The notes under the pieces: generated by a model | Databases searched by the model: none | The model's input: the letters and a program-made list of their open reading frames with translations, nothing else | Told to the model about the DNA's origin: nothing | Position numbers and translations under genes: made by a program | Shown: one piece after another, positions 3,286-22,585 of the stretch | Layout: every line of letters begins with the position of its first letter | Numbering within the stretch: the stretch's first letter is position 1 | From: Loktanella sp. | GTDB taxonomy: Bacteria; Pseudomonadota; Alphaproteobacteria; Rhodobacterales; Rhodobacteraceae | Direction of reading: 5' to 3' | Assembly (NCBI GenBank): GCA_017390475.1 | Contig: JAFPBO010000052.1 | Span: 1-64,000, forward strand | DNA: 64,000 bases

Positions 3286-3305
3286 GGCCCATGTCAGGCG
3301 GGCCG

Positions 3306-3325: not shown

Positions 3326-3467
3326 TAGGCCCTTCAGGGAGGCGACACGAAGGGGTTGCGCGGTGCATATCGCGCAGGCCCGCCCGGCGGATCAGGAGGG
3401 CCCGCCGTCCGACCGTAACCAGTCAAAGCGCCAGCCAATGGCGATACCCCCAACAGATGGAGCAACC

Positions 3468-4596: not shown

Positions 4597-4888
4597 AGGC
4601 GCGCGGGTAGCCCACCCCCCCTTTGGGGCCGGGCGGCCTGTGACAGGTTCAGCGGCATTTCTGGTTGGAGTGCAGCGTATCCGCGCGTGCGGGCCTGATC
4701 TTGCGGCGGATCTACGCATTGTAGGGCTGCCGGAGTTGTGCGCGCGCGTGGCGGCTTCACCGCCCAACCAGAACCCGCTAGGCTGATTGCACCGGGGCTG
4801 CGTGGCCCCCTGCCTGAAAAATGTCCTGTGCCGACCCGTTTACTGCCGCTCCGCCCTGCCCCGAAGACCTTTCCGCACCGGACCTTAC
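4597..4888. other. Long intergenic spacer with GC-rich hairpins
   Basis: This spacer inside the ABC gene set holds no gene. A C-run followed by GGGGCCGGG near 4612-4632 and a small hairpin GGCGG/CCGCC at 4748-4762 could act as processing or attenuation structures. That would let the abundant binding protein be made in excess of the membrane subunits. Confidence 0.3.
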
Positions 4889-6879: not shown

Positions 6880-6894
6880 CGAAAGGGGCGGCGG

Positions 6895-8475
6895 ATGACA
6901 CAGGCGAAGCTGAGCGATTGTATGCCCCAAATCGGGCCACATCCCGGGGGTGCGATGTCGCTGGAAACCCGGGCGATGACCAAGACCTTCGGTGCCCTGC
7001 GCGCGCTGGATGATGTGTCGCTGAACGTGCGCGCGGGGTCGTTCCATGCCCTGCTGGGCGAGAATGGCGCGGGCAAATCCACGCTGGTCAAATGCATCAT
7101 GGGGTTTCACGCCGCCGACAGCGGTGCGACCCTGTTGGACGGTGCGCCCGTGGCCATCGCCAGCCCCCGGCAGGCGCAGATGCGCGGCATCGGCATGGTG
7201 TACCAGCATTTCACGCTGGTGCCTTGCCTGACCACCGCCGAAAACCTTGTCATCGCTCGGCCCGACGCGCCCGGCATCATCTACTGGCGGGCCGAGTTGC
7301 AGCGGCTGGAAGCCTTCATGGACCGCATGCCTTTCCGTGTCCGGCTGGACCGGCATGTCGCCGATCTGTCGGCGGGCGAGCGGCAAAAGCTGGAGATCCT
7401 GAAGCTGCTGTATCTTGACCAGCGCGTCCTGATCCTGGATGAGCCGACATCAGTGATGACGCCGTCCGAGGCGGATGAGGTGCTGACGCTTCTGGGCGGC
7501 ATGGCGCAGCGGGGGGAAATCACGGTCCTGATGATCTCGCACAAGTTCCGCGAGGTGAAGGCGTTTTGCGACAGCTTCACCGTGCTGCGGCACGGGCGGG
7601 TCACCGGCAGCGGCTGTGCGCAGGACACCAGCATCGACGCGATGAGCCGCATGATGATCGGCGAAACCCAGCTGCGCGCCCGCGCGCCGCGCCTGACGGG
7701 GGAAGCGTCAGGGACGACGCGGGCGGCGGCACAGCCTCGCCTGACGCTGGACGCCGTGAGCGCCGATGATGCGACGGGCCGGCGGGTGGTGGACGCCGTA
7801 TCGCTGGACCTGCACGCAGGCGAGGTCGTGGGCATCGCGGGCGTGTCGGGCAACGGGCAAAGCGCGCTGGTGGAAGTTCTGGCAGGGCAACGCGCGCTGT
7901 CGGGCGGGCGCGTGCTGGCGCACGGGCAGCCCTTCGCCCCGCGCCGCGCCGATCTGGACCGCTACAAGGTGTTCGGCCTGCCGGAAGAACCCCTGCGCAA
8001 CGCCGTGGTGCCGCGCATGTCGGTGGCCGAAAACATGGCCTTCCGCAGCTTTGACAAGCCGCCCGTGGCGGGGCGTTTCGGCCTGATCTCACCCGCGCGG
8101 ATGCGGGCGGTCGCGGCGGGGCTGATCCGGCGCTATAACGTGCAGACCCCGTCGGCGGATGCGCCCATTGAAACCCTGTCGGGCGGCAATCTGCAGCGCG
8201 CGGTGCTGGCGCGCGAACTGTCGGGCGATGTGGAGGTGCTGATCGTGGCGAACCCATGCTTCGGGCTGGATTTCGCATCGGTCGCCGAAATCCGCGCGCA
8301 GATCATGGAGCAACGCAACCGGGGCGCCGCCGTCCTGCTTGTCAGCGAGGATCTGGACGAGGTGCTGGAACTGTCCGACCGCGTGGCGGTGATGTCGGCG
8401 GGCAAGCTGGGCCCGGTGGTCGCGGTCGAGGCGACCGACCGCGACCGGATCGGGCGGGAGATGGGCGGGCATTGA
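6895..8475 (+). CDS. BMP-type ABC transporter double ATPase
   Basis: This 526-residue protein has two fused nucleotide-binding domains, the usual form in BMP and sugar importers. Domain 1 has an intact Walker A (GENGAGKST), signature LSAGERQ and Walker B LILDEPTSV. Domain 2 has a degenerate Walker A (GVSGNGQSAL), signature LSGGNLQ and a Walker B region reading VLIVANPCFGLD with the catalytic glutamate replaced by Asn. Such asymmetry is normal for the family, so domain 1 probably does the hydrolysis. AAAGGGG precedes the ATG at 6895 at normal spacing. A second ATG at 6955 is possible, because the first 20 residues lie outside the domain. Confidence 0.9.
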   Translation: MTQAKLSDCMPQIGPHPGGAMSLETRAMTKTFGALRALDDVSLNVRAGSFHALLGENGAGKSTLVKCIMGFHAADSGATLLDGAPVAIASPRQAQMRGIGMVYQHFTLVPCLTTAENLVIARPDAPGIIYWRAELQRLEAFMDRMPFRVRLDRHVADLSAGERQKLEILKLLYLDQRVLILDEPTSVMTPSEADEVLTLLGGMAQRGEITVLMISHKFREVKAFCDSFTVLRHGRVTGSGCAQDTSIDAMSRMMIGETQLRARAPRLTGEASGTTRAAAQPRLTLDAVSADDATGRRVVDAVSLDLHAGEVVGIAGVSGNGQSALVEVLAGQRALSGGRVLAHGQPFAPRRADLDRYKVFGLPEEPLRNAVVPRMSVAENMAFRSFDKPPVAGRFGLISPARMRAVAAGLIRRYNVQTPSADAPIETLSGGNLQRAVLARELSGDVEVLIVANPCFGLDFASVAEIRAQIMEQRNRGAAVLLVSEDLDEVLELSDRVAVMSAGKLGPVVAVEATDRDRIGREMGGH

Positions 8476-8911: not shown

Positions 8912-9406
8912 TCATTTAACCGACGACAGTTCAGCATGCGTGCCGAACTGACCTTCGTGATAGGTCAGCGGCGACATGCTTTGCTGTATCCAGACATCTC
9001 GAATCTCACCGAAAATCACCGTATGGGTCCCGTGCTCCAAATGATGTGCGGTGCGGCAATCGAAGCTGACGCAAGCACCAATCAGTGCGGGTGCGCCGGT
9101 TTCGCGGACGGACCACTTGCCCATGTCGAACCGCGTTTCTCGTGCCGCGGGCGTGGCAAAGCGGGTGGCGATCGCGGATTGGTCGGCAGACAGAACATTG
9201 ACGCAAAAGCAGCCTGCACGCAGCAGGTGATCGTGGATCGACGCGCTGCGGTTGATGCAGATCAACAGCGTCGGTGGCGTGGCACAGACCGATGTGACAG
9301 CTGTCGCGATCACGCCGTAGCGAAGGTCATCGTCAACTGTCGTGATCAGGCTGACACCGGCAGCAAGGCGGCGCATGCCATTCTTGAAATCGTCAGGCAG
9401 GGGCAA
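8912..9406 (-). CDS. Flavin reductase, RutF-like
   Basis: This 164-residue protein of the flavin reductase domain family probably supplies reduced FMN to the RutA-like oxygenase encoded upstream. Family stretches are GVSLITTVDDD, TSVCATPPTLLICINRSASIH, FCVNVLSADQ and CVSFDCRTAHHLEHGTHTVIFGEI. These parallel E. coli RutF closely in order. The start is probably TTG at 9406, with GGAG seven bases upstream inside the end of the amidase gene. An ATG at 9376 would cut the first helix. It is the last gene of the leftward unit RutA - amidase - amidase - reductase and overlaps the preceding amidase by 14 bases. Confidence 0.82.
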   Translation of the reverse strand: MPLPDDFKNGMRRLAAGVSLITTVDDDLRYGVIATAVTSVCATPPTLLICINRSASIHDHLLRAGCFCVNVLSADQSAIATRFATPAARETRFDMGKWSVRETGAPALIGACVSFDCRTAHHLEHGTHTVIFGEIRDVWIQQSMSPLTYHEGQFGTHAELSSVK

Positions 9407-10670
9407 AAGGCGTCTCCATATTCAAAAGCTGAGGTGCGATTGTCGCCGCGATCCGCAGTAAACCTGCGTCAGAGGCGCGCGGGCAGACCAGTTGCAGGCC
9501 GACCGGCAGCCCCTGATGGCAGCCAGCAGGCAAGGCGATGCATGGCATCTGCAACGCGGTCCAGATCGCATTGAACACTGGATTTCCCGGGCTGCGGCCC
9601 AGCGGGGCTGTCCCGGGCGCAGCCGGCGCTAGCAAAGCCGCGATGCCTGCGTCTGCCATCATCTTTTCCAATTGCATCGCAAATCCAGCCAGACGATCCC
9701 TTGCGCTGAACGCTGCGCGCATTGTGGCTGATGTACGGCTGTTGACCCGGTCGCGGAAATCCTGGTGCAACCCACCCGGTTGCGTCCGCGCAAGAGGCAG
9801 GAAGGCCGCAGCCCCTTCTGCGAACATGATCTCCCTGTGCAAGCTGTCGATCTCTGCAAACTCTGCCGGCAACGTGAAGGGCAGGGTGCAAGGCAAGTTG
9901 GCAGCGCGGGTCAGCGCATCAATCATCGGCTGTGTCAGCCTGTCGTGATAGGGCGTGTGACACAGGCCTAGAGTTATATTGCCCACAGCATCATTGTCCG
10001 GCAAGTCAAACACGCCAGCGAGCAATGCCATGTCCTCGATATGGCGGGCATGAAAGCCGACGGTATCAAAACTTGGCGCATAGGGCTTCAGCCCCTCGGT
10101 CGAAATCAGGCCGAAGCTGGGTTTCATACCGTAGATACCGCAAAAGCTGGCAGGCCGGATGGTCGATCCCCCGGTTTGCGTCGCAATAGCAAGCGGGACA
10201 TGGAAATCAGCCACCGCCGCCGCTGACCCGGCGGAGGACCCGCCCGGCGTATGCGCTGGCTGCACCGGATTACCCGTCGCGGCATCCCGCCCGGCGGCGG
10301 CAAATTCGGTCGTGTCGGTTTTGCCGATAATGATCGCCCCTGCGGCGCGCAGCATCATCACCACCGCCGCATCGCTGGCAGGCCGGTGCCCAGCGTAAAG
10401 CGGCGAATTATACGTGGTCGGCATGCCCGCAGTGGCAAAAACATCCTTTACACCGATGGGCAGACCCGCCAATGGGCGCGGATCGTTCGCCGTGATCAGC
10501 GCGGCTTCCGCCTCTGCCTGCGGATTGAGGCAAAGCCACGCCCTGACCGCATTATCGCGGGCGGCTATCCGTGCAAGACAGGCGCGTGTCAGATCAAGCG
10601 CTGTGAAATCTCCACGCCTGATCCCCCCTAGCGCCTGAACGGCACCAAGCTGCGTCAGTTCGTCGTTCAT
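9393..10670 (-). CDS. Amidase-signature hydrolase 1 of the catabolic island
   Basis: This 425-residue protein of the amidase-signature family hydrolyses an amide bond by a Ser-cisSer-Lys triad. The visible catalytic elements are Lys75 in GVKDVF, the GGSSAGS loop at about 143-149, and the nucleophile in QTGGST at Ser169. I chose the ATG at 10670 because it overlaps the stop of the preceding amidase as ATGA; an upstream extension has no family character. Two consecutive amidases directly behind a RutA-like ring-opening oxygenase suggest sequential hydrolysis of the opened ring or of a released ureide. The substrate is unknown. It is not a GatA, since no gatB is adjacent. Confidence 0.85.
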   Translation of the reverse strand: MNDELTQLGAVQALGGIRRGDFTALDLTRACLARIAARDNAVRAWLCLNPQAEAEAALITANDPRPLAGLPIGVKDVFATAGMPTTYNSPLYAGHRPASDAAVVMMLRAAGAIIIGKTDTTEFAAAGRDAATGNPVQPAHTPGGSSAGSAAAVADFHVPLAIATQTGGSTIRPASFCGIYGMKPSFGLISTEGLKPYAPSFDTVGFHARHIEDMALLAGVFDLPDNDAVGNITLGLCHTPYHDRLTQPMIDALTRAANLPCTLPFTLPAEFAEIDSLHREIMFAEGAAAFLPLARTQPGGLHQDFRDRVNSRTSATMRAAFSARDRLAGFAMQLEKMMADAGIAALLAPAAPGTAPLGRSPGNPVFNAIWTALQMPCIALPAGCHQGLPVGLQLVCPRASDAGLLRIAATIAPQLLNMETPFAPA

Positions 10671-12115
10671 GGCTGCATCAGGTGATGTCCTGTCACCCCC
10701 TGAAATGCCGCGCCAAGCGCAAGACACAGCGCATCGTCATAAGGCCGCGCTACGATTTGTATCCCGAGCGGCAGACCACTTGGTCCGACCCCGGACGGCA
10801 GCATCAGCGCCGGAAAGCCGACCAGATCCCAGATCATCGTATTGCGAGAGATGATATCGAAACCATGTGGAGTTCCATCGATATCGATCCGCAAGCCATC
10901 AAGGTGCCCGGCCTCGCCGCCAAGGCCGGGGGTGACCAGCACATCAACGTCCCATCGCGCCAGAAGCCGTTCGATCAGGGCGCTGCGACGTCCCATGGCC
11001 AGCAGATAATCAGCCGCGGTAATTTGTTCGCCGCGCGCAATACGCGCTTTCAGACCTGCATCCTGTTCATCACGCCGGTCTTTGTTGTGCCGCTGGCTTG
11101 CGGCGAGTTCGGCTGTCAGGATGGTCCAGCCGGCCTCGTGATTGGCGGCCATCTCGCCGAATGTTGTGGCTGTGTCGATTGGCACGCAGGTCGCGCCCAG
11201 TGTTTCCATGACCTGCAGCGCCGCGCGCCAAGCCTGCAGAACCGCGGCATCGACGCTATCGGTGAACCAGCCGTCCGGTACGCCGATGCGTAATTGATGC
11301 AGTGGGCGCGGCTGCACCTCGCCCAGTATCGCCATGAGCTTCGCCAGATCCGCTGCGCAAAGCCCCATGGGGCCCAGATGGTCAAGCGTCCAGCTCAGCG
11401 GTGCGACCCCGTCAGTCGACAGCAAAGCGCGTGTCGGCTTCAGCCCGGTGATCCCGCACCAGCAGGACGGCACACGGATTGACCCGCCGGTATCGGTGCC
11501 AAGCGCGAAGGGCAGCATGCGCCGCGCGACAGCGGCACCTGATCCGGTCGACGATCCACCCGTCCAACGGTTGGCATCGTAGGGATTGGTCACAACACCA
11601 TGCCTTGGATTGAACGGTGAGCCTGCGGCGAATTCCGTGGTGGCCAGTATCGCGACTGGGATTGCGCCTGCGGCACGCAGGCGGCTCACAGCATGCGCAT
11701 CTTTTGCGGCAACACGGGATCCCGTCAACAGCGACCCACAGGTGATCTCTGCACCAGCGACATCGATGATCGCCTTTACCCCGAAAAGAATGCCTTCCAG
11801 CGGACGCGCCTTGCCAGCCTGCCAGCGAGCAGTCGAATCCTCCGCCGCAGCGGTGCAATCCAGCACCGACAGAACCGCCTCTGCCTCCGCCGGCGCGTTG
11901 ACCGCCGCACGAAAGCGGGCGAATTCGGCGGCCGGGCTGGTCTGACCTTTTGCGTAACGCGAAAGTAGATCAGCAATGCCGTCAGGCGCGCCGATGGTGT
12001 CGCCTTTGTCAAGCGGCGGTGCCAAACGCCTGACACATGACTTCAGATCAAAGGCGCCAAAAGGGTCGGCGGGCGGCCCGAGGGGAAGGCCGCCCGATGG
12101 GATGGCGTCTTTCAT
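10667..12115 (-). CDS. Amidase-signature hydrolase 2 of the catabolic island
   Basis: This is a 482-residue amidase-signature enzyme. The triad elements are Lys114 in [11 protein letters not shown], the loop [12 protein letters not shown] near 186-197, and Ser212 in [13 protein letters not shown] roughly 70-residue N-terminal part precedes the core and contains a short helical stretch ([20 protein letters not shown]) as in AtzF/AtzE-like amidases. It overlaps both the RutA-like gene upstream and amidase 1 downstream by four bases, so all are one transcript. Hydrolysis of a linear ureide or carbamoyl intermediate is the most natural role. This comes from context; the sequence alone does not fix the substrate. 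Confidence 0.85.
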
Positions 12116-13194
12116 TCAGCAGCGAGCGCCAGCTTGCTTTGACGGCATTGCATCAACGGCTGCACCTTTTGGCCAAAGGTATCCAGACCGTCAAGGAAAT
12201 CATCGAACGTCATCATGATACCTTTCACGCCTTCAATGCTCGCCACATCATCTAGCATCCGCGCAACGGTCTCATAAGACCCGACCAAAGTGCCCATATT
12301 GAAGTTCACCGCACCCTGCGGCAGATTGATGTGCTTGGCGGTCGAAGTATCATCTGCGGTCTTGTCCTTGGACCCTTGGTCCGCCATCCAGGCCAGCGCA
12401 TCAGCATCGACGCCAGAGCGCAGATGTTCCCAGCGCGCCATTGCCTTTTCATCGGTCTCGTCTGCGATGATCATGAACAGCACATAGGCACCGACATCGC
12501 GGCCTGCCTGTTTCGCGGCCTTCACCAAGGTTTCAGCGCCGTCCGAAAATGCGAGAGGCGTGTTGATCCCGACACCCATGACGAAATTGTAATCGGCATG
12601 TTCGGCGGCAAAGGCCATGCCCTTGGCGGATTGCCCGGCTGCGACGATTTCAACCTTGCTGGGCTGTGGCGAGAGTTTGCAATCATCCATGGTGAAATGC
12701 TTGCCCTTGAAATCGGACGTGCCGTTTTCCCAAAGATCGCGCATGACGCTGACATATTCGGCACCGTAATCATAACGATAGCCAAAATATGCGTCTCCGG
12801 GCCAAAGGCCCATCTGGGTATATTCGTTCTTGGCCCAGCCGGTCACGATATTGACACCAAAACGCCCTGGCGCAATGGAATCGATGGTCGCGGACATCCG
12901 CGCCACAAGGGCAGGGGGCAGCGTCAGGATCGCGGTGGACGCAAACAGCTTGATCTTGCTGGTCACTGCGGCAAGCCCGGCCATCAACGTAAAGCTTTCA
13001 AGGTTATGATCCCAGAATTCAGTCTTGCCGCCGAAACCGCGCAGTTTGATCATCGAAAGCGCGAATTCGAGGCCGTAGCCCTCGGCCTTTTGCACGACCT
13101 GTTTATTCAGTTCAAACGACGGCTTGTATTGTGGCGCGGTTTCAGAAATCAGCCAGCCGTTGTTCCCGATCGGGATAAAGACGCCCATGTCCAT
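12112..13194 (-). CDS. rutA: RutA-like flavin-dependent pyrimidine/amide monooxygenase
   Basis: This 360-residue luciferase-like monooxygenase closely parallels E. coli RutA, which opens the uracil ring between N3 and C4 using FMNH2 and O2. Shared stretches include [60 protein letters not shown] and [11 protein letters not shown]. It is the first gene of a leftward operon that also supplies its flavin reductase. A perfect GntR-type operator lies about 80 bases upstream. In the Rut pathway the product is ureidoacrylate peracid, handled by RutB/C/D. Here RutC and RutD are absent and amidases follow, so the true substrate may be a related cyclic amide rather than uracil. Confidence 0.88.
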
Positions 13195-13272
13195 AGCAAT
13201 ACCTTCCTGTTGGGGTTTGTATGGACATAGTTTCGATTCTGGTGGTCCGTGCTAGGCTTTGGTCTGAATAAA

Positions 13273-13282
13273 TGTCCGGACA
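13273..13282. promoter_or_regulatory. Operator copy 1, upstream of the rutA-like operon
   Basis: Perfect palindrome TGTCCGGACA (context AATGTCCGGACAAT) between the GntR gene and rutA. Three further exact copies and one near copy lie at the other units of the island, so this is the probable binding site of the GntR/UTRA regulator. Confidence 0.75.
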
Positions 13283-13351
13283 ATGCTAAAATTTTTGCAA
13301 CGCCCGGAATTCTTGCTGCCTATTGGTGTGGTTGTCGAAATTTTGAACATG

Positions 13352-14101
13352 TCATGTTTCCGGCTCTCCCGCTGACAGCACGGTCCGGTAATTGAACCGT
13401 TCTGCTGGCAGGGTCTGAATCGCATATTCCAGCAAACGCCCGCGCGATGACAAATAGCGACGTGTCATGCGCAGAGCTAGCGATCCTGTGGGCAGCATCA
13501 GTTTTCCTGCCAGATCAGGTGTCAGTTGCACCGGAGTCAGTTCTTGATGGATCGAGGCAATCCGCTCTCCGGTGTAACTTTCGACCATATGGAACAGCGC
13601 CTTGCGCAGAACGTCCACGCCTTGCAACACCTCTGCCACACTTTCATCAAGATAGACCTCGTTCCAACAAAATGGCAGGTCTTCGCCTTTAAAATAACGC
13701 AAACCAGCGGCATAGGTAAAGGTGCGACCGGGGGCAACTCCCATTTCATACGCTACCTCCTGGCGGGCGATCACCTCTGTCTTGGTCTGGAAATGCAGTT
13801 CCGAATCGCGCGAGAAGTCAAACAGATCATGCCGCGACTGGCCCCGGAACCGGGTCCGCCAATCGTTGCCTTTGGTATTGACCATCGTGCCCACGCCTTT
13901 ACGCGCGGTGACAGTGCCATTGCGTTTCAACTGATCAATCGCCTGACGCACAGTATAGCGCGACACCTGAAACGCGGTCACAAGTTCCGCCTCGGTCGGC
14001 AACAGGGTGCCGATGGGATAGATATCGTCGCGGATGCGTTGTTCCAGCTTATGGGCGATCTGCAGATAGAGCGGTGAAGCGCGGTCCAGATGGGGGGGCA
14101 T
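13352..14101 (-). CDS. GntR-family (UTRA/HutC-type) transcriptional regulator
   Basis: This regulator of about 249 residues has an N-terminal winged helix (SPLYLQIAHKLEQRIRDDIYP, LPTEAELVTAFQVSRYTVRQAIDQL, then GVGTMV) and a C-terminal UTRA ligand-sensing domain (SYTGERIASIHQELTPVQL, GSLALRMTRRYLSSRGRLLEYAIQTL). An in-frame ATG at 14137 overlaps an operator copy, which argues that 14101 is the real start and that the operator represses the gene itself. AGAGGA lies upstream of 14101 at slightly long spacing. It sits between the leftward rutA operon and the rightward MFS gene. It replaces RutR, the TetR-type regulator of classical rut loci. Confidence 0.88.
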   Translation of the reverse strand: MPPHLDRASPLYLQIAHKLEQRIRDDIYPIGTLLPTEAELVTAFQVSRYTVRQAIDQLKRNGTVTARKGVGTMVNTKGNDWRTRFRGQSRHDLFDFSRDSELHFQTKTEVIARQEVAYEMGVAPGRTFTYAAGLRYFKGEDLPFCWNEVYLDESVAEVLQGVDVLRKALFHMVESYTGERIASIHQELTPVQLTPDLAGKLMLPTGSLALRMTRRYLSSRGRLLEYAIQTLPAERFNYRTVLSAGEPET

Positions 14102-14126
14102 ATCGGGCTTGCGTCCTCTTGTTATT

Positions 14127-14136
14127 TGTCCGGACA
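14127..14136. promoter_or_regulatory. Operator copy 2, GntR/MFS divergent promoter region
   Basis: Exact TGTCCGGACA (context TTGTCCGGACAT). It lies between the divergent GntR gene and the MFS gene (start 14188), placed to repress both. Its right half contains the alternative GntR start at 14137. Confidence 0.75.
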
Positions 14137-14187
14137 TATGTGTATCTGGAGCGAAACGATATAAACGTACCTGTGGCAGATCATATT

Positions 14188-15417
14188 ATGTCAAGTCTAC
14201 AACACTTTGGCGAGACTCAGTCTTCCACTTCGCAGGTGTGGCTGACGCTATCGCGGATGACCGCCGTCCAGATTGCCGCAACTTCAAGCGTTCTTGCTCT
14301 GACGGCACTTGCACCGATTGTCGCCGAAACACTGGGCGTTGGTGCTTACTGGATCGGGTATCAGGTCAGCTTTATCTATTTCGCGGGGCTGTTCGCATCG
14401 CTTTGCGCCGGCAGTTTGGTCGCGCGGCTCAGCGGCGAGGCGATCATCGCGACCGAACTGGTCCTGCTGATCATCGGTCTGGTGCTGCTGGCCAGCGCCA
14501 ACCCGGTGCTGATGGTCGCCGCCTCCGTGCTGTTCGGGATAGCCTATGGCATCAATAACCCGGCCTCATCCGTCATTTTGCAAGAGGTAGCATCGGACAA
14601 ACGCCGCAGCCTGATCTTTTCGCTCAAGCAAAGTGGGGTGCCTTTGGGTGCGGTCGTCGCCAGTGCTTTTCTGCCGCTGTTGGCGCTGTGGCTATCAAGC
14701 TGGCAGGCCGCAATCCTTGCGCTGGCGTTCTTGCCTGCGATCCTTCTGCCGCTGACATTGCGGCGGATGTGGCACCGGCCAGCGCGCAGCCTGGGGAGGT
14801 TTCCCGGCATATTTTCAACTGCCGTGAACGAGCAAAAGGCGATCATGCGCGATCCGGCCTTGCGCACGCTTGCTGCGCTGGGTTGTCTTATGTCGGCAAT
14901 GCAATTGACTGTGACAGCCTTCGCAGTTGTGTCACTGGTCGAGATCGGGTGGTCGATCCCCGCTGCTGGTGCCTTGGGCGCGGCTTTGCAGATCGCTGGC
15001 GCGACAGGGCGCGTGGGCTGGGGAATTGTTGCTGATCGGTTTGGTCCGTTCCGCGTGTTGTCGGCGCTGGGCTTTGCGGCGGGGGGGTTGTCACTGGTAC
15101 TCTATTTCCAGCCTTTATTGCCGCAACCGGTTCTGGCCTTCGTCCTTGTGGCGCTCGGGGCCTGCGCCTCTGGCTGGAACGGCGTGTTTTTGGCAGCAAT
15201 CGCCCGCACGGCACCACCGGGGCGCGTCGGTGCTGCGACTGGGGCCATCCTGTCTTACACCTTTATCGGGGTCATCATCGGCCCATCCCTGTTCGCAGCA
15301 CTTTACCATGTCCTCGGAAGTTATCCGCTCTGCTTCGCCATCGGCGCGATTCCCGGTCTCATAGGCGGCGTGCTGGGCTATCGTCGGCACAATGCGAATA
15401 GCTTTGTCCGGACATAA
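14188..15417 (+). CDS. MFS transporter
   Basis: This is a 409-residue major facilitator with about twelve hydrophobic segments. It shows the loop 2-3 signature region SLVARLSGEAI and, in the second half, a GRVGWGIVADRFGPFRVL motif typical of cyanate/monocarboxylate-type MFS carriers. Several longer starts are open upstream, but the ATG at 14188 is chosen because the preceding frame crosses the operator and the GntR coding region. It is divergent from the regulator and flanked by operator copies 2 and 3, so it belongs to the same regulon. It probably imports the pathway substrate or exports a product and stands where RutG would be expected. Confidence 0.85.
   Translation: MSSLQHFGETQSSTSQVWLTLSRMTAVQIAATSSVLALTALAPIVAETLGVGAYWIGYQVSFIYFAGLFASLCAGSLVARLSGEAIIATELVLLIIGLVLLASANPVLMVAASVLFGIAYGINNPASSVILQEVASDKRRSLIFSLKQSGVPLGAVVASAFLPLLALWLSSWQAAILALAFLPAILLPLTLRRMWHRPARSLGRFPGIFSTAVNEQKAIMRDPALRTLAALGCLMSAMQLTVTAFAVVSLVEIGWSIPAAGALGAALQIAGATGRVGWGIVADRFGPFRVLSALGFAAGGLSLVLYFQPLLPQPVLAFVLVALGACASGWNGVFLAAIARTAPPGRVGAATGAILSYTFIGVIIGPSLFAALYHVLGSYPLCFAIGAIPGLIGGVLGYRRHNANSFVRT
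15405..15414. promoter_or_regulatory. Operator copy 3, inside the last codons of the MFS gene
   Basis: Exact TGTCCGGACA (context TTGTCCGGACAT) covering the final codons of the MFS gene, immediately before its stop at 15415-15417. It lies 107 bases upstream of copy 4, so the two could cooperate at the promoter of the ABC operon. Confidence 0.7.
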
Positions 15418-15511
15418 AAAGCAGCAAGCGTCGGTGATCAGCGCTATTATTTTCAGCAAAAAATAAAAGTAACTGAAAAATACCTAAAATAGGCTTCTAT
15501 CCAACCTAGTA

Positions 15512-15521
15512 TGTCCGGACA
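15512..15521. promoter_or_regulatory. Operator copy 4, upstream of the ABC-amidase-rutE operon
   Basis: Exact TGTCCGGACA (context ATGTCCGGACAA) 33 bases before the binding-protein start, within an AT-rich promoter-like stretch at 15440-15540. The placement suits repression of the downstream six-gene unit. Confidence 0.75.
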
Positions 15522-15554
15522 AATAAAGTTGTAATCACTCATGGGGACATGCCA

Positions 15555-16637
15555 ATGAAATTTCGCGCCACCTATCTGCTTTTACCTTTCCTGATTCCCG
15601 CCGTTGCACAGGCCGATGCCATGGACGATGCGCTGGCCCTGATCGAAAAGCATCGGGAAATTCCAGCCTTCGTGCCACAGGGTGATCCGTTTGATGCCCG
15701 CACCTGCATGGCTGATAAATCAGTCTTTTCGATTCCGGTGACGATGACGATCCCGTTTGCGGTCGCTCTTGAAGATGCGATGTCGCGCGCTGCGGCCGAT
15801 GTCGGGTTTCGCTATACCGTTTGGGAAACGCAAGGCGGGATGGATTCCTACATCCAGGGTGTCGATCAGGCTGTGTCGCAAGGCTATGATCTGGTCGATC
15901 TTGCCGGTGGTCTGAATCCTGTCGTGATCGGGCCACAACTGATGCAGGCGCGCGAGGCGGGGCTGACCGTCACCACGACCCATCTGTATGACGAAACGCA
16001 GGAACAGGCTGACATCGTTGATGCCTCGGCCAAGGTGCCATTTTCCACAGTCGGTGACATTCTGGCGGCTTGGGCATTCGTCCAGACCGACGGCGCGCCC
16101 AATGTCCTGATCATCGGTTCCGACGATGTTCTGCCGACGACGCCTTTTGTCGAAAGCATTCAGGCATCGCTGACCGAATATTGCCCCGATTGCGCGCAGC
16201 AATATCTCAACGTGCCACTGGCCGAATGGGGCACGCGTATCCAGTCTGGGGTGCAATCGGCCATGCTGTCGAACCCTGATATCAATTTCATCATCCCGAT
16301 CTACGACAGCATGTCACAATTCGTCACCCCCGCCTTGCGGATCGCCGGGGCCGATGTGCCGATCGCAAGCTTCAATGGCACGCCCTTCGTGCTTGATATG
16401 GTTCGTGAAGATACGGTGCAAATGGTGATCGGGGAAAGCCTTGGCTGGGCCGGATATGCGGCGGTCGATGTGCAGATGCGCCAGCTCTGCGGGCTGCCGG
16501 TGCCGGATGATCTGGGCATCCCACTGGTGATTTTCGATGAGTCCAATATCGAAACCGTCGGCGTTCCGGCCAATTTCGACGATGGCTACGGCGATGCACA
16601 TATCGCCGGTTTCCGCGAACTCTGGATGCTGGACTAA
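15555..16637 (+). CDS. ABC transporter substrate-binding protein (sugar-type, Peripla_BP_4-like)
   Basis: This is a 360-residue periplasmic binding protein with a Sec signal (KFRATYLLLPFLIPAVAQADA) and no lipobox. The body has the two-lobed sugar-type pattern with repeated beta-alpha units (VSQGYDLVDLAGGLNPVVIGPQ; VLIIGSDDVLPTTPFVESIQ; IPIYDSMSQFVTPALRIAG). The ATG at 15555 is preferred over 15549 because GGGGA sits seven bases before it and only about one base before the earlier one. It is the first gene of the operon controlled by operator copies 3 and 4. Together with the following ATPase and permease it should import the cyclic amide or a related compound. Confidence 0.85.
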   Translation: MKFRATYLLLPFLIPAVAQADAMDDALALIEKHREIPAFVPQGDPFDARTCMADKSVFSIPVTMTIPFAVALEDAMSRAAADVGFRYTVWETQGGMDSYIQGVDQAVSQGYDLVDLAGGLNPVVIGPQLMQAREAGLTVTTTHLYDETQEQADIVDASAKVPFSTVGDILAAWAFVQTDGAPNVLIIGSDDVLPTTPFVESIQASLTEYCPDCAQQYLNVPLAEWGTRIQSGVQSAMLSNPDINFIIPIYDSMSQFVTPALRIAGADVPIASFNGTPFVLDMVREDTVQMVIGESLGWAGYAAVDVQMRQLCGLPVPDDLGIPLVIFDESNIETVGVPANFDDGYGDAHIAGFRELWMLD

Positions 16638-16640
16638 GCC

Positions 16641-18245
16641 ATGAATGTCGAGCCGCTGTCCCCGCCCGGTGTCACCACTCATGACGCCGATATCCTGCGG
16701 ATGTCACATATCAGGATGAAATTCGGCCCTGTCGAGGTGCTCAAGGATGTCACCCTGACACTACGCCGCAAGGAAATCCTTGGTCTGTTGGGGGCGAACG
16801 GGTCCGGCAAGTCAACGCTGATCAAGGTGCTTGCCGGGTTCAATTCGCCCGAACCCGGCAGCGTCGTGCGGCTCTGGGGTGAAGAACTGCCCCTCCCGCT
16901 CGATGCGGGGCGGATCCGGCAAATGGGGGTTGCCTTCGTGCATCAGCATCTGGCCTTGGTGCCAAGCCTGTCGGTAATCGACAATATGCTGATTTCGGAC
17001 ACTTCGCTGCGGCCTTACGGCATCAACTGGGGCAAAGAACGGCGCCGGATATCGGCCCTGATGGCCGAATTCGGCCTGACCATCGATCCTGACGCGATGG
17101 TCGGGTCACTGTCCCCGGTCGAGCGTGCCTTTGTCGCCATCGTCCGCGCCTTTGCCGAATTGCGCCGGTCTGATGCAGGCCGGGGCGGCGAAGGCATTCT
17201 GGTGCTGGATGAACCGACGCCGTTTCTGTCCGTGGCTGATGTCGACAAGCTTTTCACGCTTCTGCGCGGCATCCGGGCGACCGGCGCGTCGGTGATCATC
17301 GTCACCCACGACATTGACGAGGTGTTGAGCCTGACCAACCGTGTTGCCGTGATGCGCGACGGGCGGCTCGCGGCGATGCTGAACACGCAGGATACCAGCC
17401 GCCAGCAAATTCTTGATACAATCGTCGGACGGGCGATATCGGCCTATGAACGTGCCGCCAAAACAGCGCCCACGCAGCCCAATGTGACGATCAAGGGCTT
17501 GTCCGGTGGCCGCTGCAAAGGGTTCGATGCAACGCTAAAAAAAGGTGAAATCCTTGGTGTCACCGGGCTGATCGGCTCGGGCTTTGCCGATGTGCCGTAT
17601 CTTTTGTTCGGTGCAACACCCGGTCAGGGGCAGATCACGGTGGGCAAGACACAGCTGGACGCGGCCCATCTGCCGCCTGCAAAGGCGCATGGCGCAGGCA
17701 TTGCCCTGTTGCCGGGCGACAGAATGGGGCAGGGCGGTGTGGCCACCCTCTCAGTCACCGAAAATGCAACCTTTCTGGCATTGCCGCGCATGCGACACGG
17801 CCTGGGGCTGAGCCATGCAATGATGACACGCGCGACCAACGCGCTGATCGCAGCGCATGATGTGCGCCCTGCCAATTCGTCGGCGGACCTTGGCAATCTG
17901 TCGGGTGGCAATCAGCAAAAAGTATTACTGGGCAAATGGCTGGCCGAGGAACCGCAGCTTTTATGCCTCGATGAGCCGACGCAGGGCGTCGACTATGGCG
18001 CGCGGCAGCAAATTTTTGCAGCCTTGGATCAGGCCGCAGCGCGTGGCATGACGATCCTTATCGCCTCGACCGATCACGAACAGCTCGCACAGCTTTGCGA
18101 CCGGGTGATCGTGTTTCGCCGAGGCGTGCCGATACAGGAACTTGGCGGCGCTGAGGTCGCAAAAGAAAAGATCGCACGCGCCTGTCTGGGCAGCGATCTG
18201 CCCCAAAACAATGACGTCCCTCAGGATACGGAGGTCTTTGCATGA
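16641..18245 (+). CDS. ABC transporter double ATPase (RbsA-type)
   Basis: This 534-residue protein has two ATP-binding domains in tandem. Domain 1 has Walker A GANGSGKST, a divergent signature LSPVERA and Walker B ILVLDEPTPF. Domain 2 has a degenerate Walker A (GLIGSGFADV), signature LSGGNQQKV and Walker B LLCLDEPTQGVD. This is the RbsA/XylG type that pairs with a single kind of permease. It starts three bases after the binding-protein stop and overlaps the permease start by ATGA. It energises uptake of the island's presumed substrate; the ligand is not evident from the ATPase. Confidence 0.9.
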   Translation: MNVEPLSPPGVTTHDADILRMSHIRMKFGPVEVLKDVTLTLRRKEILGLLGANGSGKSTLIKVLAGFNSPEPGSVVRLWGEELPLPLDAGRIRQMGVAFVHQHLALVPSLSVIDNMLISDTSLRPYGINWGKERRRISALMAEFGLTIDPDAMVGSLSPVERAFVAIVRAFAELRRSDAGRGGEGILVLDEPTPFLSVADVDKLFTLLRGIRATGASVIIVTHDIDEVLSLTNRVAVMRDGRLAAMLNTQDTSRQQILDTIVGRAISAYERAAKTAPTQPNVTIKGLSGGRCKGFDATLKKGEILGVTGLIGSGFADVPYLLFGATPGQGQITVGKTQLDAAHLPPAKAHGAGIALLPGDRMGQGGVATLSVTENATFLALPRMRHGLGLSHAMMTRATNALIAAHDVRPANSSADLGNLSGGNQQKVLLGKWLAEEPQLLCLDEPTQGVDYGARQQIFAALDQAAARGMTILIASTDHEQLAQLCDRVIVFRRGVPIQELGGAEVAKEKIARACLGSDLPQNNDVPQDTEVFA

Positions 18246-19240
18246 CCGCAGGAACGACCAACCCAACCGCCGCCAAACCCCGCCGCAGCTGGACAAAAGA
18301 GATGGAGCGTTTTGCCCTGCTCGGCGCTTGGGCGGTACTGATCGCGGTTTTCGCGTTGGCCGTGCCGGATACATTTCTGACATGGCGCACATTCAGTGCG
18401 ATGTTCGGATCGCAGGCGGTGCTTGTTGTGCTGGCACTCGCGATCCTCGTGCCGCTGACAGCGGGGGATTTTGATCTGTCCGCCGCCAATGTGCTGGTCT
18501 TTACCGCAATGCTGGTCGCGGTCACCAATGTGCAGCTTGGTTTGCCGATTGGCCTGTCCATCGTGCTGGCGCTGGGTATCGGGGCGCTGATTGGTGCAAT
18601 CAATGCGTTCTTCGTGCTGTTTTTTCGAATTCATTCCCTGATCATCACCCTTGGCGTCGGCACCTTCCTGCAAGGGCTGACGCTATGGATGTCGCAAAGC
18701 CGTACGATCTCGGGCATTTCGATGGAGCTTGTGCAACTGGTCGTGATCCAGCGGCTGGTCGGCATCCCGCTGGCCTTTTACTACGGTCTGGCACTGGCGC
18801 TGATCATGTGGTGGGTTTTGGAATACACAATTGCGGGCCGCAAGCTGCTGTTCGTCGGGCGCGGGCGCGAGGTGGCACGGCTGAACGGCGTTAAGGTTGA
18901 CAGGGTCCGCGCCATGGCGCTGGTCACCTCATCCACCCTCGCCGCGATTGCCGGGGTGCTTTATGCAGGCATGACAGGCTCTGCTGATCCAAACTCGGGG
19001 TCCAGCCTGTTGCTGCCGGCCTTCGCTGCGGCCTTCCTTGGGGCGACGACTCTCTATCCCGGACGGTTCAACCCTCTGGGCACGCTGTTGTCGGTTTACT
19101 TCCTGATCACAGGAATCACGGGGCTGACCATGCTGGGGGCCGATGCCTATGTGCAAAGCCTGTTCTATGGCGGCGCACTTGTCGTAGCTGTGTCTCTGTC
19201 ACAGCTTGTACGTGGCCGCCAACCGCAAAGTTTTGGCTGA
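18242..19240 (+). CDS. ABC transporter permease (RbsC-type)
   Basis: This is a 332-residue inner-membrane permease of the BPD_transp_2 family with about eight to ten hydrophobic segments. Family marks are LAILVPLTAGDFDLSAANVL near the N-terminus, IHSLIITLGVGTFLQGL, and the coupling helix GRGREVARLNGVKVDRVRAM. The final segment has FAAAFLGATTLYPGRFNPLGTLL as in ribose-type permeases. It overlaps the ATPase upstream, and its stop codon overlaps the start of the small GatC/AtzG-like gene. Transporter and hydrolase subunits are therefore made from one tightly packed message. Confidence 0.9.
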   Translation: MTAGTTNPTAAKPRRSWTKEMERFALLGAWAVLIAVFALAVPDTFLTWRTFSAMFGSQAVLVVLALAILVPLTAGDFDLSAANVLVFTAMLVAVTNVQLGLPIGLSIVLALGIGALIGAINAFFVLFFRIHSLIITLGVGTFLQGLTLWMSQSRTISGISMELVQLVVIQRLVGIPLAFYYGLALALIMWWVLEYTIAGRKLLFVGRGREVARLNGVKVDRVRAMALVTSSTLAAIAGVLYAGMTGSADPNSGSSLLLPAFAAAFLGATTLYPGRFNPLGTLLSVYFLITGITGLTMLGADAYVQSLFYGGALVVAVSLSQLVRGRQPQSFG

Positions 19241-19407
19241 TGATGGATGAAATCCTGATTGCCTTTCTGGGCATCCCACCAACACCCCAGGACCGCGCGA
19301 TCTATGCGGATCAACTGGCACGACTGCGGGCGATTGCGGATAATCCCTTGTTGCCCCCGAAAGATGGGCTGCAAAAGTCTGACCCGCTTGGGGCAGGCCA
19401 TCCATGA
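19240..19407 (+). CDS. Small GatC/AtzG-like partner of the following amidase
   Basis: This is a 55-codon gene starting ATGATGGATGAA on the last base of the permease stop and ending in ATGA over the amidase start. It contains FLGIPPTPQDRAIYADQLAR followed by LRAIADNPLLPP. Size, position and the helix-then-proline layout match AtzG, the GatC-like subunit that stabilises the amidase AtzE in cyanuric acid breakdown. The similarity is by eye and the protein is a little shorter than AtzG. The overlapping start and stop on both sides make a real, co-translated gene likely. Confidence 0.6.
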   Translation: MMDEILIAFLGIPPTPQDRAIYADQLARLRAIADNPLLPPKDGLQKSDPLGAGHP

Positions 19408-20702
19408 CCCTGCCACCTCTCACCACGATAGCCGCGTTGCGGCAGGCACTGGATCAGCGCACCGTCTCGGCACACGAGCTTGCGCAAGATGCCACCGCGA
19501 AAGCGGGTCTTGGCCGCGCCTTCGCAACCATCCGCGCGCTGCCGGGCAGGGATGGCCCCTTGGCCGGTATCCCACTGGCGCATAAAGATATGTTCGACCG
19601 CCCCGGTGAAGCGGTCGGTATGGGCGCACATGCATCGGCCGCGACGATAGGCACCGGAACCGCGACTGTGCTGGATCGCCTCGATGCCGCAGGGCAGGTC
19701 GATATTGGACGGCTGCGGATGAGTGAATTTGCCATGGGGCCGTCCGGCCATAATGCCCATCACGGCATGCCGGACAACCCATTGGTGGCGGGCGCAATCA
19801 CCGGGGGGTCGTCCTCTGGCTCTGGTGTGGCCGTCGCAGCGGGGATCGTCCCGGCAGCGCTCGGGTCCGACACTGGCGGATCGATCCGCATTCCGGCGGC
19901 CTGCAACGCTGTGGTGGGCTTCAAACCGACACAGGGGATGGTGCCTGTCGGTGGCGCCATGCCGCTGTCCTGGACGCAGGATTGCATCGGCCCGCTTGCG
20001 GCATCTGTCGGCTGTGCGCGGCAGATGCTAGAAATCATCAGTGGGCAGCATTTTCCGGCTGTCACCGGCCCCCTGCGGATTGGTCTGCTATCCGGGCCGA
20101 TGCAGTCAGGCGCCTCTGCCGCGATGCAAACCGCAATGGCTGAGGTCGCGCAAGAGCTTGCCCGCAACCACCACAGCCTGACAGATCTGCCGCTGGCATT
20201 TTTCGACGACCTGACCGAACCCGCCAATGTCATCGCGATGAGCGAGGCCGCAACAATCCACGCCGACCGCCTGCGCCAGCATTCGCTCACCTACGGCCCA
20301 CAGGTCCGCGCCCGGCTGATTCAGGCCGCTGCGATCTCCGCGCAAAGCTATCTGCGCGCCCGCCAGATCCGGCAGGCAGCGCAACAGCAAATGGCTGCGG
20401 TTTTCACCACAACCGACGTGATCCTGATGCCAACCTTGGCCGATGTGCCGCCACAAGGTGCCGCTGTCGATATTGGCAACGACCCACAGCTTGACCGAGT
20501 GATCGCCGGACTGACGCGGTTCACGCGCCCGGCCTCTTTCCTCGGCCTGCCCGCCATAAGCCTGCCCATCGCAATGACGCAAAATGGCCCGCTTTCCTTG
20601 CAAGTCATCGGACCACCTTACAAAGAAGCGCGCATAGCCGCCATCGCCGCGCAGATCGAGGCGATCACAGCGCTCAGACCCGTTCAAAAATTCGCTGCAT
20701 AG
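19404..20702 (+). CDS. Amidase-signature hydrolase 3, AtzE/GatA-like
   Basis: This is a 432-residue amidase. Triad elements are Lys61 in IPLAHKDMF, the loop [13 protein letters not shown] near 133-145 and Ser160 in [12 protein letters not shown]. The compact N-terminus resembles AtzE- and GatA-type amidases, which need a small GatC/AtzG partner, and a candidate partner overlaps its start. In AtzE the substrate is 1-carboxybiuret; here a carbamoyl or ureide intermediate from the RutA branch is plausible. It is co-transcribed with the importer upstream and lies 14 bases before the RutE gene. Absence of gatB and the catabolic setting argue against a role in tRNA amidation. Confidence 0.85.
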
Positions 20703-20716
20703 AACAAGGATTAACC

Positions 20717-21316
20717 ATGCTCGATTCCAAACCATCGCTCGACAACAACGCGATCTCCCAGCTTTTCACCGAGGCCCGCAGCCAGAACGGATGGCGGGAC
20801 AAAAAGGTGTCAGACGAAACATTGCACGCGCTTTGGGATATCCTGAAATTCGGTCCGACATCGGCCAATTGTTCGCCGGGCAGGTTCGTGTTCATCACCA
20901 GCGATGCGGCAAAGGAAAAGCTGCGCCCTGCACTGTCGGGCGGCAATCTCGACAAGACGATGTCTGCGCCGGTCTGCGCAATCATCGCATGGGACCCTGC
21001 GTTTTATGACAAATTGCCCAAGCTTTTTCCCCATACTGACGCCCGCCCATGGTTCACCGGGTCAGAATCTGTGGCCCATGAAACGGCATTCCGCAATGGT
21101 ACGCTGATGGGTGGCTATCTGATGCTGGCCGCACGCGCGCTGGGCCTTGATGTCGGGCCGATGTCGGGCTTTGACGTCGGCATGGTCGAAAATACGTTCC
21201 TCCCAGAGCGTGGCTGGAAAGCGAATTTCCTTTGCAACATCGGCTATGGCGACCCTGAAAAGCTGTTCGACCGCCTGCCGCGCCTCGCTTTTGATGAGGC
21301 TTGCGCTATCCTCTGA
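20717..21316 (+). CDS. rutE: RutE-like malonic semialdehyde reductase / nitroreductase family
   Basis: This is a 199-residue NAD(P)H-dependent flavoprotein of the nitroreductase fold. It parallels E. coli RutE along its whole length: [73 protein letters not shown] and the C-terminal [17 protein letters not shown]. RutE reduces toxic malonic semialdehyde to 3-hydroxypropionate at the end of uracil breakdown. Its presence suggests that the island's pathway also ends in a semialdehyde. It closes the rightward operon, and its stop overlaps the end of the opposed amidohydrolase gene by 11 bases. Confidence 0.88.
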
Positions 21317-21938
21317 TGCCTAATCCAGCGAGGTGTTTAAGCGCTGCCGCCTCGCTGACGACATCGGCATATTTCGCATTCATATCAAACAGATTTGCCT
21401 GATGCGGCGCATCATGTCTGTCCCCGCAGGCATCGGCGACAACGATGGTTCGAAACCCGTGGCTCATTGCATCGACACAGCTGGCACGCACGCAGCCGGA
21501 TGTGGTCAGCCCCGTCAGCAATATGCTGTCGCAGCCAAGAAAAGTCAGGGTCGACGCCAAAGACGTGCCGAAAAATGCGCTGGGATACTGTTTTTCCAGG
21601 ATGATCTCACCGGGTTGCGGTACAAGCCCCTTTGCAAAATCGCCCGTCGTGCGTCCGGGCAGGAACGCTTCCAAAGGTTTCGCTTTCTCAAAAAAGCGAC
21701 CCCCTGTCACACCTGCCATATCATAAGTCACCTTTGTCAGGACAATAGGGATATTGGCGGTCTGTGCAGCCCTACGCAGCCGCAAGGCCGAGGCTAGTGC
21801 GCTGTCAATCTGTGCATAGAGCGGGCAGTCTGGATCAAAGTAAGCCTGCGCAAAATCGACAAGTATCAAGCAGGGATGGCGTCCAAAACCGACGGAGTTG
21901 TTATAGACATGCGCATAATTCTGCTGAAGGTCGGTCAT
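21306..21938 (-). CDS. Isochorismatase-fold amidohydrolase (N-carbamoylsarcosine/maleamate amidase-like)
   Basis: This is a 210-residue cysteine hydrolase. The family triad is visible as Asp28 ([12 protein letters not shown]), Lys116 ([13 protein letters not shown]) and the nucleophile Cys149 ([12 protein letters not shown]). The TTSGCVRA motif and the short N-terminus fit N-carbamoylsarcosine amidase and maleamate amidase better than RutB, though the position in the pathway could be the RutB step. The ATG at 21938 is chosen over a longer frame reaching into unrelated sequence. An operator-like palindrome lies about 30 bases upstream, which puts the gene in the same regulon although it is transcribed alone, opposite to the rutE operon. 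Confidence 0.85.
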
Positions 21939-21968
21939 CTGAATCCCACTGTTTTTCCTTCTCTTTAA

Positions 21969-21978
21969 TGTACGGACA
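21969..21978. promoter_or_regulatory. Operator copy 5, one mismatch
   Basis: TGTACGGACA (context ATGTACGGACAAAA), differing from TGTCCGGACA at one position. It lies 31 bases upstream of the isochorismatase-fold gene and 6 bases from a run of AT-rich promoter-like sequence. Confidence 0.6.
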
Positions 21979-22123
21979 AAAGATATGTTCGCAATAGGAT
22001 TCATGCGGCGTTTCCGAAGCAATGGCTGCTGGATCCTTACCCAATTAAGCGGGTTCCGCTGCGGCAAGGGTGGTGGCCAATTCCGCACTGGCTGTGATGC
22101 GCTGCACAAAAGGTCGTTTTGCA

Positions 22124-22585
22124 TCAGCCAAGCCGTTGATGATCATGGCAGGCTCCGTCGATGACGTGTCGGATTACGCCGCCATGCGCCAGATTTTTGA
22201 ACAGGCCAGCGGGACGACACGGCATCTGCTGACGTTTCAAAATGCTAACCACAACGCCGCCGCCCCGATGCCCGCGCCTTCCGAAAGCTGGCAAGGCCCT
22301 GATGGCGCGGGCGGCACTTCGTTTGATCACTATGCCGATCCCGTCTGGGACAGTTTGCGGATGAACAATATCGCCCAGCATTTTGCCACCGCCTTTCTGG
22401 ACCTGCATTTGAAGGGCGACACCGACAAGGTCGCCTACCTCGATCTTATCCCCGAGGCGGCTGACGGGGTCGTGGCCTTGAACGAGGACGGCACAGAACG
22501 GCCCGACCATAGCTACTGGCGCGGCTTTGCGCCACGCACTGCCGCCGGTCTCAGCTTTGAGACATTGGCACCAGATACGGAGTAA
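22124..22585 (+). pseudogene. 5'-truncated alpha/beta hydrolase (dienelactone hydrolase-like)
   Basis: Only the C-terminal half of an alpha/beta hydrolase is present. It begins around SAKPLMIMAGSVDDVSD and carries the catalytic-His region (FQNANHNAAAP) followed by FDHYADPVWDSLRMNNIAQH and the tail up to the stop at 22583-22585. No nucleophile elbow precedes it, and upstream sequence from 21979 to about 22100 shows no related coding. A GTG at 22070 would give an open frame but not a complete enzyme. It is probably debris at the right border of the catabolic island and not a working RutD. Confidence 0.7.

Follow-up and report, generated by a model that had tools for sequence, protein, structure and literature searches.

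The window under study is a stretch of 64,000 nucleotides from Loktanella sp. (assembly GCA_017390475.1, contig JAFPBO010000052.1, positions 1 to 64,000), and the host genome has a size of 4.13 Mb. A catabolic gene island containing a homologue of RutA was confirmed at positions 8912-21980 of this window by profile searches and by reading of the open reading frames (ORFs). An earlier, sequence-only reading of the same DNA had named RutA, RutE, a RutF-like reductase, three amidases, a carbamoylsarcosine/maleamate-type hydrolase (here called Icm), a carrier of the major facilitator superfamily (MFS), an RbsABC-type ATP-binding cassette (ABC) importer and a GntR regulator, and all of these were confirmed by the profile searches. 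The genes and the putative operators of the island are as follows.

8912-9406, minus strand: flavin (flavin mononucleotide, FMN) reductase, RutF-like; PF01613 137 bits; TIGR03615 143 bits, under the RutF cut-off of 254.75
9393-10670, minus strand: AmiA, amidase-signature hydrolase, closest to malonamidase E2; PF01425 222 bits
10667-12115, minus strand: AmiB, amidase-signature hydrolase; PF01425 248 bits; best PDB relative AtzE 6c62, 141 bits
12112-13194, minus strand: RutA of the Ser105 type, predicted FMN-dependent amide oxygenase; TIGR03612 629 bits
13271-13284: putative operator palindrome upstream of rutA
13352-14101, minus strand: GntR-UTRA regulator; PF00392 and PF07702
14125-14138: putative operator palindrome between gntR and the MFS gene, conserved in relatives
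14188-15417, plus strand: MFS carrier; PF07690 131 bits
15403-15416: putative operator palindrome at the 3' end of the MFS gene
15510-15523: putative operator palindrome upstream of the importer operon
15549-16637, plus strand: substrate-binding protein, Peripla_BP_4 type; PF13407 60 bits; PDB relatives weak only
16641-18245, plus strand: ABC importer ATPase, RbsA type; PF00005 in two stretches
18242-19240, plus strand: ABC importer permease; PF02653 (BPD_transp_2) 97 bits
19240-19407, plus strand: ORF of 55 amino acids (aa), possible AtzG/GatC-like partner by position; 4-base overlap with amiC
19404-20702, plus strand: AmiC, amidase-signature hydrolase; PF01425 244 bits; AtzE among the closest solved relatives
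20717-21316, plus strand: RutE, predicted malonic semialdehyde reductase; NF003768 300 bits, cut-off 152
21306-21938, minus strand: Icm, predicted carbamoylsarcosine/maleamate-type cysteine hydrolase, 210 aa; PF00857 119 bits
21967-21980: putative operator palindrome upstream of icm

The flavin reductase, AmiA, AmiB, RutA and GntR are encoded on the minus strand, as is Icm at the far end of the island; the MFS carrier, the binding protein, the ABC ATPase, the permease, the 55-aa ORF, AmiC and RutE are encoded on the plus strand. Several neighboring genes overlap or directly adjoin one another, among them rutA/amiB/amiA and the pair formed by the 55-aa ORF and amiC. The start of AmiA was corrected to an ATG at about 10670 (judged from the sequence; the listed ORF reached 10727), that of GntR to about 14101 (the listed ORF ran to 14137, an upstream start that the operator overlaps) and that of Icm to 21938, and the MFS start was moved by homology to about 14188 (ORF listed from 14074). 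Three of the nine amidase-signature genes of the genome are packed into about 10.6 kb of the island. Because of this, and because the gene set recurs in other genera, the grouping is more than chance.

Five perfect palindromes of the TTTGTCCGGACATAT type precede the transcription units of the island (rutA, one; gntR/MFS gene, one; binding-protein gene, two; icm, one), and all perfect copies in the genome lie within the island. The palindrome was found by aligning the gap between gntR and the MFS gene from the window and seven relatives, and the pattern used genome-wide was fixed after the window sites had been seen. The dinucleotide content of 108,848 bases of the host genome outside the island predicts about 0.42 perfect copies genome-wide and 0.0013 in the 13.1-kb island, against five observed. 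A perfect palindrome was present in none of 100 shuffles of the window. At up to two mismatches, the window gave 12 strand matches against 0.77 expected, a number reached in none of 100 shuffles; these matches fall at eight positions, of which six belong to the island and two (29326 and 63718) lie beyond it. Genome-wide there are seven one-mismatch palindromes, two in the island and five outside, and inspection of two of the five outside sites (C1 and C54) for further regulon members gave no convincing target. All 12 island-type loci have the palindrome beside the start of the MFS gene, and 10 of them have it before rutA. A separate palindrome serves icm in the window and in loci L046 and L047, where icm stands apart from the rutA operon. 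The operators of GntR-type regulators have a GT-AC form. From this form and the position of the sites we infer that GntR binds the motif; the five palindromes are probably its operators, and the regulon is most likely GntR-controlled.

The window RutA scored 629.3 bits with NCBIfam model TIGR03612, over the curated equivalog cut-off of 498.3, a score that cannot separate the types of RutA (copies beside rutB/C/D score 583-725 bits, mostly at least 672). Its best match in the PDB is E. coli RutA, and it is 64% identical to the E. coli copies. Residues described for the O2 pocket and active site of RutA are L65, T105, N134, V136, W139 and F224 (PMC10005588, PMC7662398), with position 105 of the E. 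coli enzyme in contact with O2 (PMC10005588). The window RutA keeps L65, N134, V136, W139 and F224, and T105 alone is changed, to Ser; position 140, Gln in E. coli, is Ala. Across 104 grouped RutA rows, L65, M67, N134, W139 and F224 are invariant. The T105S mutant of E. coli RutA retains about 80% of its activity, and other substitutions at T105, N134 and V136 abolish activity (PMC7662398). Because T105S is tolerated, RutA chemistry is probably kept in the window enzyme, and the RutA-type ring opening proposed earlier gains support from the conserved catalytic residues. The specificity of the enzyme may nonetheless have changed.

The residue at position 105 follows the neighborhood of the gene. 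Among 126 RutA rows, Thr105 was found in 30 of the 31 with rutB/C/D close by (the exception is L164) and Ser105 in 92 of the 95 without them nearby (the exceptions are L101, L117 and L151, the neighborhood of L151 being covered with 1.5-kb flanks only). Seven canonical RutA sequences fetched later all have Thr105, Gln140 and Asn305, and all three plasmid copies read have Ser105. Position 140 was considered as a further mark of the subfamily and is weakened in this role: Ala140 occurs in 75 of the 126 rows, and Gln is found in 18 of the 95 rows not beside rutB/C/D, rows without the S-A-T signature, and in R. rhododendri (the Ser105 rows with Gln140 among them comprise 12 SQT, three SQS and two SQK). 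A tree of the 126 rows was built from trimmed cores by a quick search, with Shimodaira-Hasegawa-like approximate likelihood ratio test (SH-aLRT) support. The placement of RutA had been named beforehand as a check. A 31-row clade (SH-aLRT 99) contains E. coli RutA together with the copies encoded beside rutB/C, L164 excepted, and the window RutA lies outside it.

No rutB, rutC, rutD, rutG or rutR gene adjoins the island RutA in searches with family profiles and with BLAST to E. coli references, and the absence of RutC, RutD, RutG and RutR that the sequence-only reading had reported is thereby borne out at the locus. Genome-wide, RutB gave no match over the cut-off (best 44 bits) and RutC reached 36 bits against a cut-off of 169; RutD and RutG are absent from the island, and neither was searched for genome-wide. 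The view of a catabolic island distinct from the canonical Rut operon is supported. Two findings had been named in advance as counting against it, namely rutB/C/D elsewhere in the genome together with a RutA clustering with the uracil-specific enzymes, or a lack of conservation of the amidases with rutA. As far as tested, neither came true, since RutB and RutC have no match over cut-off, RutA falls outside the canonical clade and the amidases are conserved in island relatives.

Elsewhere in the window genome there is a reductive pyrimidine cluster with PreA (729 bits, cut-off 335), dihydropyrimidinase (602 bits, cut-off 393) and a carbamoylase-type hydrolase (TIGR01879, 390 bits, cut-off 204). 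PreT was assigned by position, the NCBIfam matches of the flavoprotein lying below cut-off, and a RutR-like regulator (242 bits vs cut-off 368) is found in this cluster, not in the island. PreA is over cut-off in 13 of the 24 genomes examined, including 10 of the 12 island genomes. In the other two, G849 and G853, a Thr105 RutA is accompanied by rutC/D and by a neighboring RutB-like gene whose score of 366-369 bits falls slightly short of the cut-off of 378. A marker of another uracil route is present in all 12 island genomes (PreA in 10, canonical rutA-rutB in two). RutB is over cut-off in two of the 24 genomes, and five further genomes and G846 score 340-376 bits. Both types of RutA occur together in seven of the 24 (G857 and G858 are among those read for Ser105 copies). 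Since every island genome has a marker of another uracil route, in some cases canonical rutA-rutB, the earlier suggestion that the substrate is not uracil is strengthened; the substituted pyrimidine, barbiturate and hydantoin named with it remain guesses.

The flavin reductase is RutF-like in sequence and not RutF, because its score with TIGR03615 is 143 bits against a cut-off of 255. RutE passes the malonic semialdehyde reductase model NF003768 (300 bits, cut-off 152). The best PDB relative of AmiA is malonamidase E2 at 188 bits, with the next group at 158 or less; the GGSS motif and the VKD lysine are present, and the usual cis-Ser/Ser motif pattern was unmatched by regular expression. AtzE 6c62 is the nearest solved relative of AmiB (141 bits), and the solved relatives of AmiC are 2dc0 (169 bits), GatA (154) and AtzE 6c62 (146). 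The cut-off of the AtzE family TIGR02715, 425.75, was not reached by AmiC (226 bits), AmiB (203) or AmiA (156).

Icm has the isochorismatase fold, and its top five PDB relatives include 26st (140 bits), 3ot4/3uao (113) and 1nba (91), where 26st and 1nba are N-carbamoylsarcosine amidohydrolases; 4l07 and 4l08, ranked between, are unnamed isochorismatase-family chains. We take 3uao to be a maleamate amidohydrolase. The LVDF, EKQ and TSGCVR motifs are present in Icm and presumably supply the D, K and C residues of the N-carbamoylsarcosine/maleamate amidohydrolases. On the RutB model, Icm scored 41 bits against a cut-off of 378.

The 55-aa ORF aligns with eight counterparts just ahead of amiC in relatives, labeled hypothetical in the Palleronia and Thioclava records. 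An AtzG identity was considered and set aside: the ORF has no convincing match in NCBIfam, Pfam or the PDB, and its counterparts have a few weak Pfam and NCBIfam matches, far under cut-off. The earlier label "AtzG-like" is thus without sequence support. AtzE forms a complex with AtzG and needs it for solubility (PMC6219798), and by position and size the ORF before AmiC is a possible AtzG/GatC-like partner.

Relatives were sampled by a RutA scan of genome contigs (the best 80 loci among at least 562 relatives), with presence counted by BLAST to window and E. coli references and genes called by a heuristic by which genes can be missed. More or less complete versions of the island were found in 11 further genomes among those examined and on plasmids of Palleronia and Rhizobium. 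In the set of 11 island loci (ten from the scan and the window), amiC, icm and the MFS gene were each found in 11, amiA in 10, the importer in nine, rutE, the flavin reductase and gntR in eight each, and rutB/C/D in none. AmiB is absent from most relatives: it is present at 67% identity or more in three of the 11 loci, with a 26% match in L061, and was also found in G188 and on the Palleronia and Rhizobium plasmids. G188 carries the same island, with Icm not called within the stretch read. The four sphingomonad loci have RutA, AmiA and MFS (4/4), AmiC (3/4) and RutE (1/4) by BLAST, and the fourth has an AmiB/AmiC-type gene by clustering. In several Gordonia/Rhodococcus loci, RutA is accompanied by Icm, the importer, a hydrolase of the nitrilase superfamily and an amidase of the AmiB type. 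The claim that the amidases are conserved with rutA thus holds for AmiC and AmiA, and also for Icm, in the island relatives and fails at the Streptomyces loci described below.

A search of 72,556 plasmid records gave relatives of AmiC (E <= 1e-60) in four, each of which also encodes a RutA with 71-83% identity to that of the window. The Palleronia plasmid has the whole island set with the flavin reductase uncalled, the R. rhododendri plasmid has the set without RutE, and the Thioclava plasmid has a reduced form. On the Palleronia plasmid (L207, 2462-2950), a Rid-family gene with 35% identity to E. coli RutC adjoins icm, a possible RutC analogue. The distribution of the island is patchy: RutA is over cut-off in four of 198 genomes of the window's family, and the one same-genus genome sampled gave no RutA match at E <= 1e-100.

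Other arrangements around RutA were also seen. Locus L044 (G067:C47, 11061-19164) combines a 41%-identical RutA relative with a leuCD-type hydratase, a 55%-identical Icm and methylisocitrate-lyase-like and caprolactamase-alpha-like genes, and appears to be a further undescribed cluster for ring degradation. The Rhodobacterales loci L053, L056, L066, L067, L072 and G153 (L042/L043) each contain two RutA paralogues that belong to different clades, and some of these clusters add amidases, flavin reductases and a DHBP-synthase-like gene. In freshwater Actinobacteria (L069 and similar loci), a Ser105-type RutA lies beside acyl-CoA dehydrogenase, HMG-CoA-lyase-like and CoA-transferase III genes, two FMN reductases and a nitrilase-superfamily gene.

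We favor, with moderate confidence, the reading that the island is a self-contained regulon that takes up a cyclic ureide or lactam and breaks it down by oxidation and hydrolysis, the compound being chemically near to, and probably distinct from, uracil and thymine. The compound would be imported by the RbsABC-type importer, the MFS carrier or both. RutA, fed FMNH2 by the adjacent reductase, would cleave the ring amide by flavin-N5-peroxide chemistry, a step suggested by its 64% identity and intact catalytic residues. AmiC and its small coupled partner may then strip nitrogen from the open-chain ureido or amide acid by an AtzE/AtzG-like hydrolysis, and Icm and AmiA may also remove nitrogen from the open-chain product, with no bond assigned to a given enzyme. 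RutE would reduce the remaining 3-oxo acid, of the malonic-semialdehyde type. Rather than "amidases instead of RutC/RutD", the set is better described as one in which amidases and a carbamoylsarcosine/maleamate-type hydrolase take the place of RutB, with further amide bonds to be cleaved. The earlier interpretation as a whole is partly supported.

Several points weigh against this reading. The window RutA may still turn over uracil or thymine, because the protein passes the NCBI equivalog cut-off and Ser105 is tolerated. Two pathways in one host are no proof of two substrates, and PreA in the relatives is a marker only of the reductive route. The RutA tree is a quick search supported by SH-aLRT values only; L164, a RutA beside rutB/C, has Ser105 and a long branch outside the canonical clade, and Gln140 is kept in several non-canonical (paralogue) clades and in R. 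rhododendri. The gene partnership is not fixed: RutE is uncalled in three of the 11 island loci (L054 has a 47% match at a contig edge), the Reyranella-type loci offer only a 34-35% AmiA-like gene in six of nine, the Ser105-type loci of Streptomyces are without any island partner (0/8), and those of freshwater Actinobacteria are without amidase or Icm (0/10). At up to one mismatch, the palindrome count in the genome is 12, no higher than the 11 of the reversed control, so that only the perfect sites stand out, and under the strict pattern icm of Palleronia and rutA of R. rhododendri lack a preceding site.

An alternative that we judge unlikely is a variant of the Rut pathway serving plain uracil or thymine, with unrelated hydrolases (AmiC and its small partner, Icm or AmiA) in place of RutB/C/D, and used under conditions other than those of the hosts' other pyrimidine route. 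Such a pathway would account for a RutA that exceeds the equivalog cut-off (629 bits) with its catalytic residues intact, for the presence of RutE and for an AmiA nearest to malonamidase; AtzE-type chemistry would suit ureidoacrylate, and the 80% activity of T105S (PMC7662398) is in its favor as well. Against it, PreA or a canonical rut system is found in 12 of 12 island genomes, both RutA types coexist in seven of 24 genomes, and up to four C-N hydrolases are present, compared with RutB and RutD in the canonical route. The window RutA also lies in a separate clade, and no RutG-like permease adjoins the island.

A substrate that lacks the ureido group, such as a cyclic imide, a pyridone or a comparable lactam, is more doubtful; Icm would then be a maleamate-type half-amide hydrolase, and RutE would act on another semialdehyde. 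The 3ot4/3uao chain among the relatives of Icm and the gene content of L044, where a RutA relative stands beside the hydratase, Icm and the lyase-like and caprolactamase-like genes, point in this direction. However, the L044 RutA is just 41% identical and has a very long branch, the island has no hydratase or lyase, and its RutE fits a C3 semialdehyde. That the island is just a loose gathering of nitrogen-scavenging genes that belong to no shared pathway is highly improbable, for although several of the families are generic (amidase, MFS, ABC), the genes overlap, share palindromes whose perfect copies are confined to the island and recur as the same set in other genera.

The favored regulon for a cyclic ureide or lactam can be compared with known systems. 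It shares with the Rut system of E. coli (rutABCDEFG/rutR) a RutA-type FMN oxygenase, a flavin reductase and RutE, and likely a ring-amide opening that ends in a semialdehyde. It differs from it in having no adjoining RutB/C/D/G/R, in the presence of amidases, Icm, GntR, the MFS carrier and the ABC importer, and in a RutA of another clade with Ser105. As in the AtzE/AtzG system (1-carboxybiuret amidohydrolase of the cyanuric acid pathway), an island amidase is preceded by a gene for a small protein, and both AmiC and AmiB have AtzE among their nearest solved relatives; unlike that system, the small ORF has no detectable AtzG similarity, AmiC is under the AtzE-family cut-off, and no AtzD, AtzH or AtzF was seen in the island. 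Clusters with atzG-atzE and atzH in Bordetella and Achromobacter, described in PMC6219798 with a monooxygenase and an FMN reductase and with function unassigned, likewise place an amidase and a small partner beside a flavin monooxygenase system; unlike the island, they carry AtzH.

The reductive pyrimidine route (PreA/PreT, dihydropyrimidinase, carbamoylase) found elsewhere in the window genome also breaks down pyrimidine rings, with no gene in common with the island. The lum cluster of lumichrome catabolism degrades a pyrimidinedione ring and was discovered through clusters with multiple amidases, but unlike the island it uses a P450, a thiamin-dependent decarboxylase and a Rieske dioxygenase (PMC12746152). 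Lumichrome catabolism was rejected as the role of the island because of this different enzyme set and because RutA is nowhere mentioned in the main text of PMC12746152.

Around the island, a gene for a BMP-type binding protein at 3291-4596 is, by eye, seemingly split over two reading frames and sits upstream of two permeases and an ATPase. A link of the upstream ABC system (4787-8475) to vitamin B6 transport was considered and rejected, as it is under the cut-off of the B6 models and was not observed next to the island in its relatives. At the other edge, an ORF at 22070-22585 resembles, by eye, the C-terminal piece of an alpha/beta hydrolase, and past the edge the GC content drops to about 45% at 23-26 kb.

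RutA is a model enzyme for flavin-N5-peroxide chemistry, and the open-access papers found link it with uracil and thymine as well as the Rut operon; searches of the open-access literature turned up no account of the present gene set. Annotated plasmid records call Ser105-type members "pyrimidine utilization protein A". There is, in our estimate, about an even chance that the Ser105-type RutA, as a group separate from uracil RutA, is a widespread modular oxidative ring opener of one or more undescribed pathways for cyclic ureides or lactams, ranging over Rhodobacterales, sphingomonads, Rhizobium, soil actinomycetes and freshwater Actinobacteria, with the window island, which has a regulator and importer of its own, as one complete example; the paralogues of the two-RutA clusters would then perhaps act on two amide bonds of one compound. 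If the Ser105 type acts on another compound, the NCBI equivalog call is too wide. The substrate is directly testable by way of residue 105 (Thr or Ser), the candidate operator and the dedicated binding protein, and the island, if this interpretation is true, would represent an unrecorded organic-nitrogen route in marine and soil bacteria.

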